DNA of 64,000 nt from contig JAIYAT010000039.1 of the NCBI GenBank assembly GCA_027488905.1, forward strand, positions 1 through 64,000. The letters are read 5' to 3'. The first letter of the stretch is position 1; the number at the start of each line of letters is the position of its first letter. This DNA comes from Bacteroidota bacterium (GTDB lineage: Bacteria; Bacteroidota; Bacteroidia; UKL13-3). The translations under genes and the position numbers were made by a program. Shown here piece by piece: positions 1 through 13,118 of the stretch. A model generated the notes under the pieces. It was not told the origin of the DNA, searched no databases, and saw only the letters and a program-made list of their open reading frames with translations.

Positions 1-333
1 AGTTTAATGAACAATTGCCAGGTAAGTTATATCCAAAGCGAAATTAAACCTTGGGCAACAATAGGCGTTGGGGAGCGCTTAAATTCTGCATCAGGTTTTA
101 GCCTATATCCTAATCCAGCCACACAACAGGTTACCCTAAAAAGCTTACATAAACAATCCTTCACCCAAGTTCAATTAAGAAGCATAGAAGGAAAGTTAAT
201 AGAAACCTATCTGTTTATTCAAGCAAAAGAAGAAGTGGTTCTTCAATTGCCGCCATTAAGCAAAGGTTTGTACCATTTATATATTTCAAGTGAAGACATC
301 CAAGGGTTTACCTTGCCGCTTATGATTGAGTAG
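1..333 (+). CDS. C-terminal end of a type IX-secreted protein (partial, 5' end outside window)
   Basis: The frame is open from base 1, so the gene starts upstream of the window; the ATG at base 7 is probably internal. The visible 110 residues end in a type A sorting domain of the type IX (Por) secretion system: an LYPNPA motif, a stretch of short beta strands, then KGLYHLYI and a final IE. In this family the domain directs export across the outer membrane and is cleaved at the cell surface. The functional part of the protein is outside the window, so its role cannot be stated. The next gene follows after 63 bases on the same strand. Confidence 0.8.
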   Translation, partial: SLMNNCQVSYIQSEIKPWATIGVGERLNSASGFSLYPNPATQQVTLKSLHKQSFTQVQLRSIEGKLIETYLFIQAKEEVVLQLPPLSKGLYHLYISSEDIQGFTLPLMIE

Positions 334-396
334 GAAATTAATAGTAATTCTACTTATGAACTTTGTTTTCGAATTTAGATTTATATTTTTATAGGC

Positions 397-1743
397 ATGA
401 ATGATTCTTCAACTTATTTAATCGTCTATTGCTTTGTATCATTACTAGGTTCCTTAATGTGGATTTATTATTTTAAACTCATTGATGTATTTGAACCAGA
501 AAAATTCTTGCATTTACTGGTTTCGTTTTCCTTTGGATTAGCCTCACCTTTCATACTATTCCCACTTTATCCTTTGTTCGAAAACTTAGGGCTTCATTCA
601 GATGACTACCTCCTTCAAACACTCATCGAGAATTTTATTTTAGCTGGTTTGTTAGAAGAATTTTTAAAAGCATTTACCTTTTTGTGTGCCTTTATTTTAA
701 TACGAAAAACAATACATGAACCCCTTGATTATTTAATCCATATATGCCTTTGCGCCTTAGGTTTCTCTGCCACTGAAAATGTGCTTTATTTTACCAGTCA
801 CGGTGCTGCCATCATAGATTTCCGATTTGTTTTTTCTTCCTTCGGCCATATTTTTAATAGTTCAGTTTTTGCCTATGGCGTAATATATGGCATTTATAAA
901 ACACAAAAACATATCCTATTATATGCCCTTTCTTTTTTGCTTCTTGCCGCCCTATTTCATGGCATGTTCAACTTTCTACTTAGTTATGAATTTACTGGTC
1001 ACCTTTTAGTCTTTGGGTTGTATTTCTTTTTATTGGTCTCAATTTTTAGCACAACCTTAAACAATGCCCTTAATAATTCTAGTTTATTCTCCTATAAAAA
1101 ATTAATTTACCCTGACCCAATATTTTTAAGGATGATGCTGGTGTATTGCGCACTGCTATTGATTAAAACAATCTTACTATACTTCCAATTCTCTCTCATA
1201 CATGCACTCAATAGCTTATTTAGTAGTTTTATAATTTCATTACCTATTGTACTTATTGTTTTCCAAAGAATTTCGCGATTTACACTCATAAAAAACCATT
1301 GGATGGAATTTTCATTGGAGTTGCCCTTTACTAGTATCTCCTATTTTTCTGGAACTGGCATAGCCACAAAAATTGTAGTGAAAGGGCAGGGCCAAACAGA
1401 AACCTATTTAGGTTCATTTTTAGGCACAAACAATTTACTTTGCGCCGCATCTGAACGCACATCTTGGTTTGAGAACGCGCCAGAAATACAGGTAAGTCGT
1501 AAACTATTTCTAAATAACTATTCCATCTTCTACCGAATAAAAATAAACGAAGAAACAGAGGATGACACAAGTTACTTTATTAAAGCTAAAATTATTGGTA
1601 ATACCACTATAAATAACACCTATCCAGTAGTTGCTTTATTGTCTTCAAAGGTTAAAGGTGTAAAACATCAAGATTTATATGATTTTGATGATTTTGATTT
1701 CTTAGGCTGGTGTTATCTTAAGCCTATCGGAGTTACCGCGTAA
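397..1743 (+). CDS. PrsW-like glutamic-type intramembrane protease with C-terminal extension
   Basis: 448 residues. The first ~290 are strongly hydrophobic with about eight or nine membrane segments. They carry the motifs of the PrsW (M82) family: EEFLK at 87-91 (Glu87, Glu88), SATEN around Glu127, His151 in HIFNSS and His188 in FHGMFNF. PrsW cleaves membrane-bound anti-sigma factors in Bacillus; the substrate here is unknown. Residues ~300-448 form a soluble tail I do not recognise, which makes the protein longer than typical PrsW. No sigma or anti-sigma gene is adjacent. The ATG at 397 is used because the membrane domain starts directly after it. Family assignment is fairly secure; function is by homology only. 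Confidence 0.75.
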   Translation: MNDSSTYLIVYCFVSLLGSLMWIYYFKLIDVFEPEKFLHLLVSFSFGLASPFILFPLYPLFENLGLHSDDYLLQTLIENFILAGLLEEFLKAFTFLCAFILIRKTIHEPLDYLIHICLCALGFSATENVLYFTSHGAAIIDFRFVFSSFGHIFNSSVFAYGVIYGIYKTQKHILLYALSFLLLAALFHGMFNFLLSYEFTGHLLVFGLYFFLLVSIFSTTLNNALNNSSLFSYKKLIYPDPIFLRMMLVYCALLLIKTILLYFQFSLIHALNSLFSSFIISLPIVLIVFQRISRFTLIKNHWMEFSLELPFTSISYFSGTGIATKIVVKGQGQTETYLGSFLGTNNLLCAASERTSWFENAPEIQVSRKLFLNNYSIFYRIKINEETEDDTSYFIKAKIIGNTTINNTYPVVALLSSKVKGVKHQDLYDFDDFDFLGWCYLKPIGVTA

Positions 1744-1780
1744 TTTTTAGTTTAAGGCATCTATTAAATAAAAGTAAACC

Positions 1781-1848
1781 CTACTTCACCACACTTCCTG
1801 GTTCAATCTCTTGTTCTGGGCTTACGCTGTATAGCTTTCCAAAGTCAT
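1781..1848 (-). pseudogene. Remnant copy of the metG 3' end
   Basis: These 68 bases match 5913-5980, the 3' end of metG, at 64 of 68 positions, including the stop codon. Read on the minus strand they encode the last 22 residues of MetG in frame, from DFGKLYSV to the stop. Three of the four differences are synonymous and one changes Lys to Gln. The pattern implies the fragment was once part of a functional, selected gene. Similarity ends abruptly on both sides. It lies 37 bases past the stop of the PrsW-like gene. Confidence 0.8.
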
Positions 1849-1981
1849 GTATTTTTAAACGCAACTTTTACAAGCAAATCAAACTAGCAAACTTGCCTTT
1901 GTGGGTGGAGTGAGTTGTGTAAAATTTGATTATCTTATTATTAATTTGGCCCTTATCCACTTATTTATCAACTAGGTTTAC

Positions 1982-1989
1982 TAGTTTTG
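1982..1989 (+). promoter_or_regulatory. Bacteroidota -7 box for the large secreted protein gene
   Basis: TAGTTTTG fits the TAnnTTTG consensus and lies 18 bases before the ATG at 2008. No clear TTTG -33 element is seen at the expected spacing. Confidence 0.4.
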
Positions 1990-2007
1990 ATATAAGCTAA
2001 AATTTTT

Positions 2008-5000
2008 ATGAAACAATTTAAATTAACCCTTGCAACAGTTCTATTGCTTTTCTGTTTTACATTAAACACCGCCAAGGCAGCCCATAATGTTGGGGTAGAA
2101 GTTAGATTTAAAAGCATTGCAACACGTGTTTATGAAGTAACCGTAAAATTATACAGAGATTGCCAAGGTATACAATTGTGTAGCGGTTGTGGTACTGGAG
2201 GACCAGGGACAACAGGCTGCTCTTTTAATGTGCAAGTTGTGGGCAGTAGCCCCCCGAACGGTTTACCGCATAATTTACCTGCGCAAACTTGTACTAATGT
2301 TAATTATGGCAATTTCTCATTACCCATTGCTACTGGAACTAGTGTTTTTGATGCAGTGCAACTATGTAACCTTAGCAAAAGTATTTGCACAAATTGCAAT
2401 TCCCGCACCCCTGGCACATTTACACCTGGCATAGAAGTATATACCTTTAGAGGTAATGTTAACCTTACAGGATTGCCGGCATCTTGTTGCTGGGTATCCA
2501 TTGGCGCTGCAAACGCCTGCTGTAGAAATAACGCTATTACCACCCTTCAAAACCCAGGTTCAATAGCTCTTTTTGGCGAGGCACTATTAAACATTTGCTT
2601 AACATCACCGAACGAAAGTCCTGTTTTTATGAATGAGGCAGACCCTGTAGCATTTTCAGGTCAAGATTTTACCTATAGCATTGGTGCCTATGACCCAGAC
2701 GGAGATTCAATAAGTTACAGATTAGGCACCACCCAAGTTTCACGGGGTATAGATGCACCCTATATTGCTCCTTACTCTGCAACCGTTCCATTTCCTTATT
2801 TAGGTATTCCTGGGCAATCTCCACCCGCACTACCGCCTTTTGGAATTTCTTTTAATGCCGTTACAGGTCTGCTTCGGGTTCGACCAACTGGGGCATTTGT
2901 GGCTAATTTGGTTATTGAAGTGCTTGAATGGAGAAAAATTAACAACATCAATACCTTAATTAGCATCACCAAAAGGGACATACATTTTTATTCTTCTGGC
3001 TCAGGTTCTTCAGGCCCTCCAAACATAAAAGTATTTTACAAAGGTGTTGAAACCACAGCTGCTACCCTAAATTTATGTAATGAAACCCAAGCTTGTTTTG
3101 ATATCGTTTCTAATTCAAGCGGCTTGCCTACTAACGACACCACCGACCTCGAGGTTAGCTTTGGGTCATCCAATGCCACTGCAACCATAACCAGACCTTA
3201 CAATGTTGCAACGCGACATATAAATGGTCCAAAACACGATACACTGAGAATTTGTATCAATGGAATGAACAACAATTCAAACTTTCTGGTCAAACCTTAT
3301 ATCCTTTACATCAAAGCAAAAAATAGACAATGTGTTAAAAATGCCTACCTAGTAAGAAGTTTGGTAATAAACAAGGGCTCTTCTGCACCACAAATTACAA
3401 TTGCAAAAGAAACTAAGGTATATGGATTACCAGTAAAGGCTTTTCTTACTTTTTTGAGCAACCCAAACATTGTTAAGGATAGCACACAATGGTTTATTGA
3501 AACCTCCCCAACCTCAAATACCTTCAATTTAATTGGCTCAGGAACTGATACTGTGAATAACATCATCTTAAATCAAGGGGGTTATTTTGGAATAAAGGCG
3601 AGTGTGTATTCAGCTGATTGTGGCAGGTATGAGTTGATTGATTCTATTTTAGCAAAACATGTAGCAGTTAACTTACTAAATGTTTCTCCTGAAAAATGTG
3701 TGGGCGACTCAAATGGAAGAATTGTTTTTAGTCGGTTAGGCGGTAATGGCACTGTCTTAGCAAGTTTACAAGATACCGCCAAAAATTCTCCTCTTCTAAA
3801 ACCTTGGGCTGTTAAGGACACCTTTACAAATATTCCACGCGGATATTATTACCTGAAGGTTGCAGACTCCTTAAATTACAGAGATAGTTTAATCGTTTTT
3901 GTAAATAGAAGTTCTACTGCATTTATTGCAAATGCAGCCACTTTAACCAATATCAATTGTAACGGTGATTCAACGGGTAGAGCCATTCTAAATTTTACTG
4001 GTGGCGACTCTTTAGGCATTCGCTATTATAGCTTTGATAGTACCAATTGGCAATTGAGCAGTACTTTCAATAACCTAAAAGCCGGTGCTTACAGGTTTTT
4101 GGTGAAAGACTCCTCCAATTGCAGGGGTGGTCAAAATGCAGTTTTAACCCAACCCACTTTGTTGGTAGCCAATGCTATAGTGGTGCAACAACTTAGGTGT
4201 AAAGGTGACTCAAGCGCGGCAATTTCTATTCAAATAAGCGGCGGAAGTTCTCCATACCAAACCAAAATTGGGGATGGTAGTTTCGCAACAAAAGTCTTAT
4301 ACGCCGACTTAAAATCTGGCACTTACAACTTTCAAGTGCGAGATAGTAAAGGTTGCATTAAACAAATAAATGCTAGTATTATTGAACCTGAATTTAAATT
4401 TTCTGGCACAGCCAGTATAACACAACCCCAATGTAATTTACTTCCAGGAAGTGTAAGAATAACTGCCACAGGTGGCAACCTGCCGTATCAATATTGGTTG
4501 TCTGGAAATACTCCTGGTTTAAACCCTGTTATTACAAATATACCTGCTGGAAATAGAATTATATTTGCCCGAGATAGCAATCAATGTTTGCTAACTTTTA
4601 ATGTAACGCTTAATAATCCTCCAGCACTTAATTTGCTTCATAATAAGATAGAAACAAAGTGTTTTGGCGACAGCAATGGAAGCATTACCCTTATTCCTTC
4701 TGGTGGCAGAAAACCTTATTTATTTAATTTAAATGGAGGAAATTTTCAAGCAGATTCAGTGTTTAAAAAACTTAGCAGTGGCAATTATACCTTAACCATG
4801 CAGGATTCTTCTGGTTGTACCAAAAGTCTACTTACAAGTTTAACTGCTAGAACCCCTATTGTTACAACCATTTCAACAAGTCCAGAAACTTGTCTTGGTG
4901 CCAAAAATGGTTCGGCCATAGCTACCATTGTGGGTGGTGTAACGCCTTATACAACAAGTTGGGATGTTAATCCACCAGTGAATGGGCTTGCAGTAAGCGG

Positions 5001-5907
5001 CTTAGGTGGAGGTTATGTAAGGTTTAATGTGTTAGATAATGCGCAATGTTTGCATGTAGATTCTCCTTTCATTAAAACCAATCAACCATACACTGATGAA
5101 GTAATTTGCGGTGCTAGTTATATTCAAAACTCGGTTCAAACCGAAATTGCATGGAATAAAACCAGTGGCAAAAATATTACTGCTTATAAAGTGTTTTATC
5201 AAACAAGCTTAGCTGGAGCGCCTATAGAATTAGTTACCCTTCCATTTGCCTCAAACAGCGTAATAATAGATTCAATATCTCCTAGAAATCAAATCATTTA
5301 TTACAGCATAAGCGCAGTAGATAGTTGCAACAACGCCTCTCCTAAAAGCAGTTTAGTTGCTGCTCCATTTTTAGAAGCCACTACAAATGGTAACCTGATA
5401 AACTTAAACTGGAGTTACCAATATGGTGCAAATGGAACCACTGGATTTCAAATTTATAAAAGCATTAACAACGGTGCATTTTTACCATTAGCCTTGGTAA
5501 GTCCAATTACCACAGCCTTTGTAGATTCTTTTGGAAGTGCTTCAAATTGTGCCTATTACTTAGAAGCTGTTTATGGACCTCTTTGCTTTAGTAATTTCAA
5601 AATATTGAGCAATAAGGTTCAGCTTTTGCCAAATAGTCTTTCAGAAAATAGCGCTTCTGTTTCAAATTTTAGGATTTTCCCAAATCCTGCATCCACTGCG
5701 TTTACAATTGTCTCCAAAAATAATGTGCCATTCTCAGAAGTTAAATTATACAACAGTACAGGTGCTTTAGTTAAGGTTTTCGGTTTGAACCAAGCTCAAG
5801 TACAGGCAGAATTTAAATTGCCAATACTGGCAAAAGGTGTGTACTATGTTAAAGTAAACAATGAAAATGGAGATTTTGCTACGCTTCCGTTGTTAATAGA
5901 ACCTTAG
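2008..5907 (+). CDS. Very large secreted protein with SprB-like repeats and type IX sorting domain
   Basis: 1299 residues. An N-terminal signal peptide ends near TAKA (residue ~24). It is followed by a Cys-rich region that opens AHNVGVEV with YRDCQG, as in many Bacteroidota surface proteins. From about 563 to 1005 there are six degenerate SprB-type repeats. Each starts with a C-x-GDS/GAKNGS-like motif and continues with a GG-x-x-PY motif. Two fibronectin-III-like stretches follow. A type A type IX sorting domain ends the protein (FRIFPNPAS near 1224, KGVYYVKV near the end). It is probably exported to the cell surface for adhesion or gliding; that role is inferred from SprB repeats. It ends 5 bases from the metG stop. 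A duplicated metG tail lies just upstream, so the gene may have been inserted here. Two GGTTTGAACC-type sites lie inside it. Confidence 0.8.
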   Translation: MKQFKLTLATVLLLFCFTLNTAKAAHNVGVEVRFKSIATRVYEVTVKLYRDCQGIQLCSGCGTGGPGTTGCSFNVQVVGSSPPNGLPHNLPAQTCTNVNYGNFSLPIATGTSVFDAVQLCNLSKSICTNCNSRTPGTFTPGIEVYTFRGNVNLTGLPASCCWVSIGAANACCRNNAITTLQNPGSIALFGEALLNICLTSPNESPVFMNEADPVAFSGQDFTYSIGAYDPDGDSISYRLGTTQVSRGIDAPYIAPYSATVPFPYLGIPGQSPPALPPFGISFNAVTGLLRVRPTGAFVANLVIEVLEWRKINNINTLISITKRDIHFYSSGSGSSGPPNIKVFYKGVETTAATLNLCNETQACFDIVSNSSGLPTNDTTDLEVSFGSSNATATITRPYNVATRHINGPKHDTLRICINGMNNNSNFLVKPYILYIKAKNRQCVKNAYLVRSLVINKGSSAPQITIAKETKVYGLPVKAFLTFLSNPNIVKDSTQWFIETSPTSNTFNLIGSGTDTVNNIILNQGGYFGIKASVYSADCGRYELIDSILAKHVAVNLLNVSPEKCVGDSNGRIVFSRLGGNGTVLASLQDTAKNSPLLKPWAVKDTFTNIPRGYYYLKVADSLNYRDSLIVFVNRSSTAFIANAATLTNINCNGDSTGRAILNFTGGDSLGIRYYSFDSTNWQLSSTFNNLKAGAYRFLVKDSSNCRGGQNAVLTQPTLLVANAIVVQQLRCKGDSSAAISIQISGGSSPYQTKIGDGSFATKVLYADLKSGTYNFQVRDSKGCIKQINASIIEPEFKFSGTASITQPQCNLLPGSVRITATGGNLPYQYWLSGNTPGLNPVITNIPAGNRIIFARDSNQCLLTFNVTLNNPPALNLLHNKIETKCFGDSNGSITLIPSGGRKPYLFNLNGGNFQADSVFKKLSSGNYTLTMQDSSGCTKSLLTSLTARTPIVTTISTSPETCLGAKNGSAIATIVGGVTPYTTSWDVNPPVNGLAVSGLGGGYVRFNVLDNAQCLHVDSPFIKTNQPYTDEVICGASYIQNSVQTEIAWNKTSGKNITAYKVFYQTSLAGAPIELVTLPFASNSVIIDSISPRNQIIYYSISAVDSCNNASPKSSLVAAPFLEATTNGNLINLNWSYQYGANGTTGFQIYKSINNGAFLPLALVSPITTAFVDSFGSASNCAYYLEAVYGPLCFSNFKILSNKVQLLPNSLSENSASVSNFRIFPNPASTAFTIVSKNNVPFSEVKLYNSTGALVKVFGLNQAQVQAEFKLPILAKGVYYVKVNNENGDFATLPLLIEP

Positions 5908-5912
5908 AAGTA

Positions 5913-8018
5913 CTACTTCACCACGCTTCCTGGTTCTATCTCTTTTTCTGGGCTCACGCTGTATAGCTTTCCAAAGTCATTGCCTGCCATCAAAAGCATG
6001 CCCTGACTTTCGATTCCTCTTATTTTGCGAGGCGCTAAATTGGCAACTACTGTCACCAGCTTTCCTATCAACTCCGCTGGTTGGTAATATTCTGCAATGC
6101 CGCTAAGAATGGTGCGTTTTTCAAAGCCTAAATCTACAGTTAAGTTTAATAGTTTATCTGCTTTAGGAACTTTTACAGCTTCAATAACTTTACCTACACG
6201 CAAATCTAATTTATCAAAGTCTTCCCAAGTAATATTAGTCTTAAGCTCGGCTAAATCGCTGCTGCTTGGTTGCTGGGTATTTGATGCTTTAATCTGTTGG
6301 AGTCTTTCAAGTTGTTTGTTAATTTCTTCATCCTCCACCTGCTTGTATAATATTTCTGGCTTGGCCAACTGTGAGCCAGTTTCTATAATAACTTGAGCGT
6401 TTAACTGTTGCCAACTCACTTGGTTCAAACCTAACAAACCTACTAACTTCTTGGAAGTGTGTGGCAAAAATGGGGTTGCAGCTATGGCTAGCTTGGCACA
6501 TACTTGAAGTGCATCAAACAAAATTCCTTTTACTGCGTCTTCATCAGTTTTAACCAATTTCCATGGCTCTGTATCGGCAAGGTATTTGTTACCCGCGCGG
6601 GCAATATTCATATAACATGCTTGGGCATCCCTCAGTTTAACTTCTTTTAAATCCTGCTCCATCTCTGCAATATTTGCGGCTATTTGCTCAAAACAAATTC
6701 TCTGTGATGCTGCAATTTTTTCATACGTCGCTGAGCTGCTAAAGTCGAATTCCGAAGGAACAACACCCTCATAATACTTATCGCACAACACCAACACGCG
6801 GTTCACAAAGTTTCCAAAAATGCTTACCAACTCACTGTTAATTCTGGTTTGGTAATCCTTCCAAGTAAACTCGCTGTCTTTGGTTTCTGGCGCAATACTC
6901 GTTAATACATAGCGCAGTTCATCTTCTCTATTTGGAAAATCCTCTAAGTACTCATGTAACCAAACCGCCCAATTGCGTGAGGTTGAAATTTTATCTCCCT
7001 CCAAATTTAAAAACTCATTTGCTGGCACATTCGAAGGCAGAATATAATCTCCGTGGGTCATGAGCATCATCGGAAAAATAATGGCATGAAACACAATATT
7101 ATCCTTTCCAATAAAATGAATGAGTTCGGTATCTTCATTTTGCCACCAGTCTTGCCATTTTAAGCTGCTGGCTTCTGGCTGCTGGCTACTAGCAAGCAGG
7201 GCTTCTTTTGTTGCACTGATGTATCCAATAGGTGCATCAAACCAAACATACAATACCTTTCCATCGGCGCCATCAATTGGTACTGGAACGCCCCAATCCA
7301 AATCTCTAGTCATGGCCCGGCTTTGAAGACCTTCGTTTAACCAACTAGCACATTGGCCTTTGATATTAGATTTCCAGCCATCAAAACGCTTAATGTAGGC
7401 TTGAAAAGCAGGTGTGCTCTGCAATTTTCCCATTGGAAGAAACCAGTTTTTTGTTTCCTTTAAAATGGGAACAGCACCGCTTAATGCTGATTTTGGGTTA
7501 ATTAAATCGGTTGGACTTAAAGATGTTCCGCATTTCTCGCATTGATCTCCGTAAGCCCCAGGATTTCCGCAACGTGGGCAGGTTCCAGTAATATATCTAT
7601 CCGCTAAAAATTGCTGCGCTTCTGTATCAAAATATTGTTGGGTAACCTCTTCTTCAAACACGCCTTTCTCATACAAATGCCTAAAAAATTCTTGCGCGGT
7701 TTGATGGTGAACGGGAGAACTGGTTCTGCCGTAATAACTAAAATCTATACCAAATGATTTAAAGGCATTCTTCATAATGCCATCATATTTATCTACAACC
7801 TGTTGAGGTGTAATGCCTTCTTTTTTTGCTTTAATGGTAATGGGTACACCATGCTCATCGCTTCCACAAATAAATAAAACCTCTTTGCCAATGGCTTTCA
7901 AATACCTAACATAAATATCCGCTGGCAAATAACATCCAGCCAAATGGCCAATATGCACTGGACCATTTGCATAGGGCAAGGCCGCAGTAACCAAAACTCT
8001 CTTCTTTTCCACTCCCAT
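5913..8018 (-). CDS. metG: Methionyl-tRNA synthetase
   Basis: 701 residues from the ATG at 8018. An upstream TTG-type extension of 16 residues is not conserved-looking and was dropped. It charges tRNA-Met with methionine. Visible features are the class I HIGH motif at residues 22-25 (PVHIGHL), a CPRC...CEKC zinc knuckle near 145-160, and the KMSKS equivalent KISTS (in GDKISTSRN) in the middle. A C-terminal OB-fold tRNA-binding domain from about 590 opens with DLRVGKV. Length and domain order match the dimeric Bacteroidota form. It converges tail-to-tail with the 1299-residue secreted-protein gene at 5 bases. Its last 68 bases exist as a second copy at 1781-1848. Confidence 0.97.
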   Translation of the reverse strand: MGVEKKRVLVTAALPYANGPVHIGHLAGCYLPADIYVRYLKAIGKEVLFICGSDEHGVPITIKAKKEGITPQQVVDKYDGIMKNAFKSFGIDFSYYGRTSSPVHHQTAQEFFRHLYEKGVFEEEVTQQYFDTEAQQFLADRYITGTCPRCGNPGAYGDQCEKCGTSLSPTDLINPKSALSGAVPILKETKNWFLPMGKLQSTPAFQAYIKRFDGWKSNIKGQCASWLNEGLQSRAMTRDLDWGVPVPIDGADGKVLYVWFDAPIGYISATKEALLASSQQPEASSLKWQDWWQNEDTELIHFIGKDNIVFHAIIFPMMLMTHGDYILPSNVPANEFLNLEGDKISTSRNWAVWLHEYLEDFPNREDELRYVLTSIAPETKDSEFTWKDYQTRINSELVSIFGNFVNRVLVLCDKYYEGVVPSEFDFSSSATYEKIAASQRICFEQIAANIAEMEQDLKEVKLRDAQACYMNIARAGNKYLADTEPWKLVKTDEDAVKGILFDALQVCAKLAIAATPFLPHTSKKLVGLLGLNQVSWQQLNAQVIIETGSQLAKPEILYKQVEDEEINKQLERLQQIKASNTQQPSSSDLAELKTNITWEDFDKLDLRVGKVIEAVKVPKADKLLNLTVDLGFEKRTILSGIAEYYQPAELIGKLVTVVANLAPRKIRGIESQGMLLMAGNDFGKLYSVSPEKEIEPGSVVK

Positions 8019-9935: not shown

Positions 9936-12900
9936 ATGAACAAATATAACCTGTTAAACAGTGTACTCGGATGGCTGCTTTTTGCAGTATCTTTAGTCAC
10001 CTACACGCTCACCCTTGAGCCAACTGTAAGCTTCTGGGATTGTGGAGAATTTATCTCTGCTTCCTATCGTTTGCAAATCTGTCACCCTCCTGGAGCGCCG
10101 CTCTTCTTGATGATAGGAAGAGTTTTTAGTTTGATGGCCTCAGACCCTAGTAAAGTTGCCTTTTGGGTAAACATGGTCTCTGCAGTAACCAGCGCACTCA
10201 CTGTAATGTTTATGTTTTGGACCATCACTCACCTTGCAAAGAAGATTTTAAATAAAGATGGCAAAGAACTTGAATTCTGGAATACAGTTTCCATCATGGG
10301 CGCAGGAGCGGTTGGTGCTTTAACGCTTAACTTTTCAGATACCTTTTGGTTTTCGGCTGTTGAAGCAGAGGTATATGCCTCTTCAAGTTTCTTTACAACC
10401 CTAACTTTTTGGTGCATTCTAAAGTGGGAAAACGTTGCACATGAAAAGGATGCAAGCAAGTGGTTAGTGCTTATTGCCTATCTTATTGGTTTAGCTATTG
10501 GCGTCCATTTGTTAAACTTACTTGTTATCCCTGCGATAGTTTACGTTTATTACTTTAAAAAATACAAATACACCCGAAACGGTTTTCTTGGAGCTTCTGC
10601 TGTAGCTATTTTAGCTATTGGAATTGTTCAATTTGGATTAATCCCAGGCTTACCAGGCATTGCTACTAAATTAGATTACTTTGCTGTAAACTCTTTGGGA
10701 TTAAGCTTTAACTCGGGCGCTCTGCTCTTAATTTTATTATTAATTACACTTTTTGCTTCTTTCTTACATTATACACATACCAAAAGTGCCATTAGCCTTT
10801 ATGTAGCAATTGCTGCATATGGTATTATGTTCATAAGCAATTTGGTCATTAACTTTCACTTTAGTTCATTAATACTTTGGGGAGCAATGACTGGCGCTAT
10901 TTATTTCTTTGTGTTCAAAAAGAAAGCAGCCATGGATGTAATCAATCTTATTGTGCTTTCTATCAGCTTCGTAATTGTTGGCTACTCTTCTTACGCAATG
11001 ATTATCATTCGTTCTTTGGCAAATCCACCAATTGACATGAACGACCCTGAACAACCTTTCTCTTTATTAAGTTACTTAAACCGCGAACAATACGGTGAAA
11101 ATCCACTTCTTTATGGTCAGTATTTCTATGCTAGACCCATTAGATATGATGATGGTGACATGCAATATGCCAAAGGTTTTGATGGAAAATATGTTGAAGC
11201 AGGTACAAAAAAGAAGGCAGTTTACGACCCAAAAGATTGTACAATCCTACCGCGTATGTGGGCGGATAGAGCTGATTACGTAAGAGCATATAGAGATTGG
11301 GAAAAAATTCCTGAAGGTAAAAACAAAGTTAGCTTTGGAAAAAATATCGACTTTATGCTTAGCTACCAATTGGGTTTCATGTATTGGCGCTATTTCTTCT
11401 GGAATTTCATTGGAAGACAAAATGATGAGCAAGGTTATGGTGAACTTACTAGAGGAAATTGGATCAGTGGCGTTAACTTTATTGATGAATGGCGCTTAGG
11501 TCCTCAAAAGAATATGCCAGAAACAATGGCAAACAATAAAGCCAAAAACACCTATTTCTTCTTACCCTTAATTTTAGGAATTATTGGTTTAGTGTACCAT
11601 TTCAAGAAATCAAAGGAAGATGCAATCATTGTTTCAACTTTATTCCTCTTCACGGGTTTTTTCATTATTCTTTACCTAAACTTCCCGGCACATCAGCCTA
11701 GAGAAAGGGATTATGCTTACGTAGGTTCATACCAAACCTTTATGATTTGGATTGGTCTAGGTGTTTTAGGATTGGTTGATTGGTTGAGTAAGAAAATCAA
11801 TAAAAACACCGCTGCTGTTGGCGCAACTGTAATTAGTTTAGCAGCTGTTCCTGTATTAATGGGCCAGCAAAATTGGGATGACCATAACAGAAGTAACCGC
11901 TTTACTGCTTTGGCATTTGCAGAAGACTATCTAAACTCATGTGCTAAAGATGCCATTCTATTTACAAATGGTGATAATGATACCTATCCGCTTTGGTATG
12001 CCCAAAACGTAGAAAATATTAGAAGTGATGTGCGCGTAATTAATATGAGCTTACTAAACACAGACTGGTATGCAGATGGACTTAAACGCCAAGCTTACGA
12101 CAGCAAACCAGTAGAATTTAGCATGACACCAGAAAAATATAAGCAAGGAACAAGGGATTATGTGGTTTTCTTCGAAAATCCAGAACTTGCTAGAAGATAT
12201 GGTATCAATACGCAAGATTATTATCCATTAAAGAATATTCTGGCCTTTATTAATGATGATGCTGACCCAATGGGTACAGTGGCTACACAAGGTGGTGATG
12301 CACTTAGATATTACCCAACAAAAAAGTTTAGCTTAATTGTAAATCGTCAAGAATGTTTAAAAAATGGTGTGGTTCAACCAGAAGACGAACAATTCATGGT
12401 AGATACCATTCGTTGGGAAATTGGAAATAATAACCTCCTAAAAGCTGATTTGATATTATTAGACATTATAGCATCTAATATCAATACCAGACCTATTTAT
12501 TGGGCTATAACCACAGGTAATGATGTTTATCTTAACCTAACCAAATACTTCCAACTAGAAGGTTTAACCTACAGATTGGTGCCTATTACAAGCGAGGTTC
12601 AAAGAGATGGTACTACTGGTAGAATCAACTCAAACATTCTTTACAAGAACATAATGGAGAAGTTTAAATGGGGAAATATGGCTGAAGACAATGTTTATCT
12701 TGATGAAACTATTCTAAGACAAACTAAGAACTTTAGAAATATTTTCTACCGTTTAAGTGAGCAACTCACCCTAGAAGGTAGAAAAGATTCTGCTGTAAAA
12801 GTATTGGACTATTGTTTACAAGTGATGCCGCATAAGCAAGTGGCCTACGATGTTTTTGTAGTGCGTATTTTGGAAGGTTATTACCAAGCTGGCGCTACTG

Positions 12901-13118
12901 AAAAGGCGAATACCTTAGCCAAGGAATTACTAAGAATTCATGAAGAAAATGCTAAATATTTCCTCTCATTTAAAGGAAAGAAAAATAGCGTGCGCCAAGA
13001 TTTGGAAGACAATGTTCAAATACTAAATTATATCTGGCAAGTAGTTGATTTTCACAAACAAACCGAATTAGCAGCAGATTTTAGAAAACGCATCGATACG
13101 CTGCAAGTTGGATTGTAA
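9936..13118 (+). CDS. DUF2723 (TMEM260-like) polytopic membrane protein
   Basis: 1060 residues. The N-terminal half has at least ten membrane segments. It carries the DUF2723 signature near residues 28-55: LEPTVSFWDCGEFI, then HPPGAPLF. The acidic residues in DCGEF resemble the catalytic loop of GT-C glycosyltransferases, and the animal homologue TMEM260 is a protein O-mannosyltransferase. A glycosyltransferase role for the bacterial protein is therefore an inference. The C-terminal ~500 residues are soluble and end with helical TPR-like sequence (ILEGYYQAGATEKANTLAKE). The length is usual for Bacteroidota members. rlmB starts 2 bases after its stop, so the two are probably co-transcribed. 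Confidence 0.85.
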   Translation: MNKYNLLNSVLGWLLFAVSLVTYTLTLEPTVSFWDCGEFISASYRLQICHPPGAPLFLMIGRVFSLMASDPSKVAFWVNMVSAVTSALTVMFMFWTITHLAKKILNKDGKELEFWNTVSIMGAGAVGALTLNFSDTFWFSAVEAEVYASSSFFTTLTFWCILKWENVAHEKDASKWLVLIAYLIGLAIGVHLLNLLVIPAIVYVYYFKKYKYTRNGFLGASAVAILAIGIVQFGLIPGLPGIATKLDYFAVNSLGLSFNSGALLLILLLITLFASFLHYTHTKSAISLYVAIAAYGIMFISNLVINFHFSSLILWGAMTGAIYFFVFKKKAAMDVINLIVLSISFVIVGYSSYAMIIIRSLANPPIDMNDPEQPFSLLSYLNREQYGENPLLYGQYFYARPIRYDDGDMQYAKGFDGKYVEAGTKKKAVYDPKDCTILPRMWADRADYVRAYRDWEKIPEGKNKVSFGKNIDFMLSYQLGFMYWRYFFWNFIGRQNDEQGYGELTRGNWISGVNFIDEWRLGPQKNMPETMANNKAKNTYFFLPLILGIIGLVYHFKKSKEDAIIVSTLFLFTGFFIILYLNFPAHQPRERDYAYVGSYQTFMIWIGLGVLGLVDWLSKKINKNTAAVGATVISLAAVPVLMGQQNWDDHNRSNRFTALAFAEDYLNSCAKDAILFTNGDNDTYPLWYAQNVENIRSDVRVINMSLLNTDWYADGLKRQAYDSKPVEFSMTPEKYKQGTRDYVVFFENPELARRYGINTQDYYPLKNILAFINDDADPMGTVATQGGDALRYYPTKKFSLIVNRQECLKNGVVQPEDEQFMVDTIRWEIGNNNLLKADLILLDIIASNINTRPIYWAITTGNDVYLNLTKYFQLEGLTYRLVPITSEVQRDGTTGRINSNILYKNIMEKFKWGNMAEDNVYLDETILRQTKNFRNIFYRLSEQLTLEGRKDSAVKVLDYCLQVMPHKQVAYDVFVVRILEGYYQAGATEKANTLAKELLRIHEENAKYFLSFKGKKNSVRQDLEDNVQILNYIWQVVDFHKQTELAADFRKRIDTLQVGL

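Follow-up and report, generated by a model that had tools for sequence, protein, structure and literature searches.

A stranded metG 3′ end in a variable T9SS gene array of a Bacteroidota bacterium as the probable scar of homology-assisted illegitimate recombination

The 64,000-nucleotide stretch of Bacteroidota DNA analyzed here (the window) carries a short remnant of the 3′ end of metG at positions 1781–1848, on the minus strand, in addition to the intact gene. Comparison with related genomes suggests that this stub is probably the scar of homology-assisted illegitimate recombination, left by an imported block within a shuffling array of adhesin-type genes. The scar is real and informative, but the mechanism, one-sided homologous recombination that strands 3′ ends, is already known from the Vibrio T6SS and Rhs loci.

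The window opens with the C-terminal end of a T9SS-secreted gene (por7, 1–333, plus strand), which is truncated by the contig start, carries a Por_Secre_tail sorting domain (Pfam PF18962, 2.3e-9), and belongs to a block common to the host genome (G000) and the relative G005. The next gene on the same strand, prsW (397–1743), encodes a PrsW-family intramembrane protease (PF13367, 3.6e-22), and its stop is separated from the stub by a spacer (1744–1780) that is 92% identical to the orthologous prsW–metG spacer of G005. The stub, identified by alignment to the working metG, abuts a second relic (1846–1913, plus strand) composed of the last ∼19 codons of another T9SS gene, which end in ..KRNFYKQIKLANLPLWVE followed by the stop. 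Beyond it lies repB (2008–5907, plus strand), encoding a 1299-aa T9SS-secreted protein in which the SprB repeats (PF13573, 9.3e-26) and the Por_Secre_tail domain (PF18962, 6.7e-11) are both above the Pfam cut-off; homologues with 51–59% amino acid identity occur in the equivalent array of G005 and of a further relative, G017. The intact metG (5913–8018, minus strand), encoding methionyl-tRNA synthetase (NCBIfam NF001100, 1.1e-249), is 97% identical at the amino acid level to that of the relative G009 and is G009-like up to its stop. A preliminary description of this DNA had noted that the real metG end and the remnant bracket a 3.9-kb secreted-protein gene, and the order stub, second relic, repB, metG agrees with it. 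The genes repB and metG are convergent with stop codons 5 bp apart (5905–5915), and this boundary may be a further rearrangement joint.

The stub aligns with the working metG 3′ end (5913–5980) without gaps at 64 of 68 positions (BLAST E = 1.6e-23 to 6e-24 with the complete 3.55-Mb genome as target). The four mismatches, at 1793, 1805, 1813, and 1823, comprise three synonymous changes, the number first reported, and one K to Q replacement; the extent of the match is 21 full codons, the stop, and two bases, rather than the 22 codons plus stop originally given. A BLAST search of the 3.55-Mb genome found no third copy, and each of the other 18 genomes of the genus has at most one significant match, always metG itself. 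A dispersed repeat is thus ruled out, because the significant matches in relatives are single and located at metG. Inspection of 20 loci gave no convincing metG stub downstream of metG in any other genome. Neutral decay of a dead copy would yield at least three synonymous changes among four with p = 0.03, or 0.06 with transitions weighted 4:1, and all four stub states are also seen in the metG tails of relatives. The earlier proposal that the copy diverged under protein selection, in another strain, therefore seems sound: the synonymous excess lends it modest support and the occurrence of the states in relatives stronger support.

Two relatives, with relatedness judged by identity rather than by a tree, are especially instructive. 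The nearest among the genomes compared, G009, is 95% identical over 58 kb (5908–64,000), with the match ending at the metG stop codon; it lacks prsW, the stub, and any close repB, and its alpha-amylase gene lies 186 bp beyond metG. G005 is ∼77% identical across the shared window, mostly between 65 and 86% per kb, and has the order T9SS gene end, prsW, metG, with prsW directly against metG and no secreted-protein gene between them. Window positions 1–1846 correspond to positions 331–2176 of G005 contig C21 at 93% identity, and the correspondence resumes from window position 5913 at G005 position 2111, so that the overlap is limited to the tail. Because these elements adjoin in G005, the stub and its 3′ neighbor in the host genome represent that junction. 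The expectation that strains lacking the 2008–5907 gene would have metG ending where the remnant lies thus holds for G005, where metG ends there against prsW, but not for G009, which lacks repB and in which metG adjoins the amylase gene. Within the genus, prsW occurs in 2 of 19 genomes, those of the host and G005; across the 64 genomes of the family, all other matches are distant (25–31% identity), and a survey of GTDB r220 contigs returned no further prsW neighborhood except that of G005 itself.

The por7–prsW block is 93% identical to G005, with a dS of 0.21 for prsW and 0.26 for por7 (1–333; 90.7% nucleotide identity). The other 27 window genes compared with the G005 region have dS values from 1.33 to saturation. 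Slow evolution of prsW as the source of the 93% identity was ruled out by the gene at 9936–13,118, whose protein is equally conserved (93.4%) and whose dS to G005 is 1.33. The block thus has the marks of foreign origin, with a dS of 0.21–0.26 against at least 1.33 elsewhere and no counterpart in G009. The preliminary description was right that recombination produced the remnant from a copy that had diverged in another lineage. In the comparison with G009, the dS of metG (0.38) is the third highest among 36 genes, against a window median of ∼0.17, and dS is raised in all three genes that flank the array: metG, amylase (0.33), and hrpB (0.44) (window 5913–8018; L097 1–5222). The flanks look as if they had been exchanged along with the array, and for the right flank, metG, an exchange within the clade is also possible.

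The polarity of the event appears to be the reverse of that first proposed, in which the working tail and repB were foreign and the remnant native. Stub and working metG differ at four sites; the working copy has the G009 state at all of them and the stub the G005 state at three. Beyond its stop, the stub continues into the sequence found after G005 metG, not G009 metG. The remnant also stands in one block with prsW and por7 that is anomalously near to the distant G005 and absent from G009, an arrangement at odds with a native remnant, and the 97% amino acid identity of metG to G009 argues against a foreign working tail. The low dS to G005, the post-stop sequence, the diagnostic sites, and the distribution of prsW are together best read as import of the prsW block and the stub from the G005 side, with the working metG being resident. 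Transfer from the host lineage towards G005 could in principle give the same prsW anomaly; import is favored because prsW is absent from the sister G009.

At 1848/1849, the metG tail meets the 3′ end of a T9SS gene, with a short and patchy overlap; the parent sequences share few bases (AAAGnnATG), and the joint is thus nonhomologous with at most short matching sequence. It is known from one assembled genome, the junction at 1848 having been found in no second genome. A T9SS gene on the host's own contig C21 has a 3′ end (G000:C21:118482-118551) to which the second relic is 76% identical in nucleotides. At this locus, the replaced and stranded native end may have been that of the T9SS gene instead of that of metG. 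An analogy had been drawn with islands that regenerate a tRNA gene's 3′ end. It does not extend to this insert, whose two borders are relics of different genes: positions 1849–5912 hold only the T9SS relic and repB, with no integrase or recombinase gene, and no near-identical direct repeats of the attL/attR kind were found, as the 68-bp copies differ at four sites that carry relatives' states.

Both relics lie within an array formed by T9SS SprB-repeat genes in the interval between metG and the amylase/helicase genes. The array varies among genomes: T9SS genes occupy the interval in the host genome, G003, G005, and G017 (with SprB genes in G003 and G017), and it is empty in five relatives (G009, G010, G012, G002, and G008), in which metG and amylase are adjacent. 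In the host, the array is split over contigs C21, C29, and C1, placed as neighbors by metG–amylase synteny. Contig C21 carries the genes that follow metG in G009 (amylase and helicase, at 92%) and, beyond them, a T9SS gene A and a second, near-identical gene start, A′ (95% identical to the start of A). Its end overlaps C29 by exactly 52 bp. The whole of C29 (L119, 3016 bp) is one mosaic T9SS SprB gene, in which the opening ∼125 bases match gene A, the body is G005-like with a dS of 0.05–0.2 that rises to 0.4 near the 3′ end, and the last ∼90 bases revert to the resident-type sequence of gene A. This mosaic suggests that gene bodies can be swapped between conserved gene ends. The window start has no direct overlap with C21, C38, C4, or C32; C29 is 93% similar to window 1–135 but represents a different gene copy, and the overlap is not exact. 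In G005, an exact 100-bp overlap between contigs C17 and C21 allows the order helicase, repB homologue, cyclase, T9SS gene, prsW, metG to be reconstructed.

Taken together, the favored reading is that a donor near G005 would have supplied a block consisting of the 3′ part of a T9SS gene, prsW, and the metG tail, and that this block would have entered the tandem SprB-repeat array between metG and the amylase/helicase genes. On the left, entry may have proceeded by homologous recombination within one of the array's T9SS genes; the left end of the block falls in a T9SS gene inside the contig gap, and the neighboring C29 gene has homologous mosaic joints. On the right, the block would have been joined illegitimately, through few matching bases, to a resident T9SS gene immediately preceding repB, at that gene's 3′ end. 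The donor metG stub would thereby have been stranded together with the final codons of that T9SS gene, and the resident repB and metG would have stayed intact.

The number of events is a matter of inference, and a two-step history, which we regard as possible but unlikely, deserves consideration. A G005-like block would first have been gained by homologous recombination with its right crossover inside the metG tail, so that metG ended against prsW; later, a segment from a close relative (T9SS gene 3′ end, repB, metG) would have entered by homology within metG and by illegitimate joining at its left end, and the hybrid tail would have been stranded. The polarity of the preliminary description would hold for the second of these steps. 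The stub does look hybrid: all four differences from the working metG fall in the stop-proximal part (1781–1823), which has G005 or outgroup states, and the distal 25 bases (1824–1848) match the working copy throughout, even at two sites where G009, G005, and G017 all differ from it. Across 65 positions the stub differs from the working metG at four and from G005 metG at nine, and the raised dS of metG, hrpB, and amylase to G009 is likewise compatible with a second exchange. These features hint at a two-step history or a brief template switch, though the numbers are too small to decide. Against the former, it requires two events, and homoplasy can explain the distal identity: the codons AAG CTA of the distal stub also occur elsewhere in the genus (G011), and zero differences in 25 bases at the ∼10% proximal rate has an estimated probability of ∼0.09.

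Two further explanations seem very improbable. The direct orientation of the two tails and the presence of tandemly duplicated T9SS genes in the array, with A and A′ starts 95% identical, would accord with in situ tandem duplication of the right end of the array in the host lineage and decay of the duplicated metG tail; random decay would not be expected to give relatives' states at four of four sites, however, and a local duplicate would be followed by local sequence, not by the G005-type sequence that follows the stub. An assembly chimera of two co-occurring strains is no more credible: window position 1 is a contig end and G005 is a pond metagenome-assembled genome, as the host genome may be too, but a graph-based misjoin is unlikely because the metG tail and the T9SS end share only few bases, the genome has no second full metG, and independent mosaic joints at C21/C29 occur in the same array, with metG–amylase synteny placing C21, C29, and C1 together.

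The favored event resembles homology-facilitated illegitimate recombination (HFIR) during natural transformation, in which one end of the incoming DNA is homologous and the other nonhomologous and insertion-deletion scars result (PMC3240628); that source cites studies in Streptococcus, Acinetobacter, and Pseudomonas. The likeness lies in the nonhomologous joint at one end of the block. The present case differs in being deduced from sequence, with its left end unassembled, and natural transformation is a conjectural route. HFIR has also been proposed for the orphan immunity genes in the effector-immunity displacement arrays of the Vibrio cholerae T6SS and for Rhs C-terminal displacement (PMC5361080), where incoming modules likewise displace resident 3′ ends and create strings of orphan 3′ pieces at a variable locus; here the cargo is instead T9SS SprB-repeat genes and prsW, and one stranded end comes from a neighboring housekeeping gene, metG. 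Genomic islands that rebuild a tRNA or core gene at its 3′ end similarly leave that end twice, in direct orientation, around an insert. Unlike those, this insert has no integrase, its tails differ by 6%, and of the two tails the stub looks imported and the working one resident.

The scar records transfer between lineages that are saturated at synonymous sites in other genes, indicates a locus of secreted repeat protein exchange and end swapping, and offers a testable case of T9SS surface protein turnover in Bacteroidota. A literature search for work linking SprB repeats to gene transfer returned nothing. We tentatively suggest, as a conjecture that may well prove wrong, that the metG–amylase interval serves the genus as a standing site of T9SS surface-protein gene exchange, at which the conserved metG tail and the conserved T9SS gene ends repeatedly act as homology anchors for body swaps between species, and thus as a cassette-like adhesin locus without an integrase. 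Two other features of this region were observed. An open reading frame in G017 (C471; L038 7312–8841) fuses a piece resembling the start of a diaminopimelate decarboxylase to a T9SS C-terminal end and is a probable assembly chimera. The alpha-amylase gene beside metG itself carries a T9SS tail in five genomes (L036 6636–6821; L042, L043, L044, and L048).
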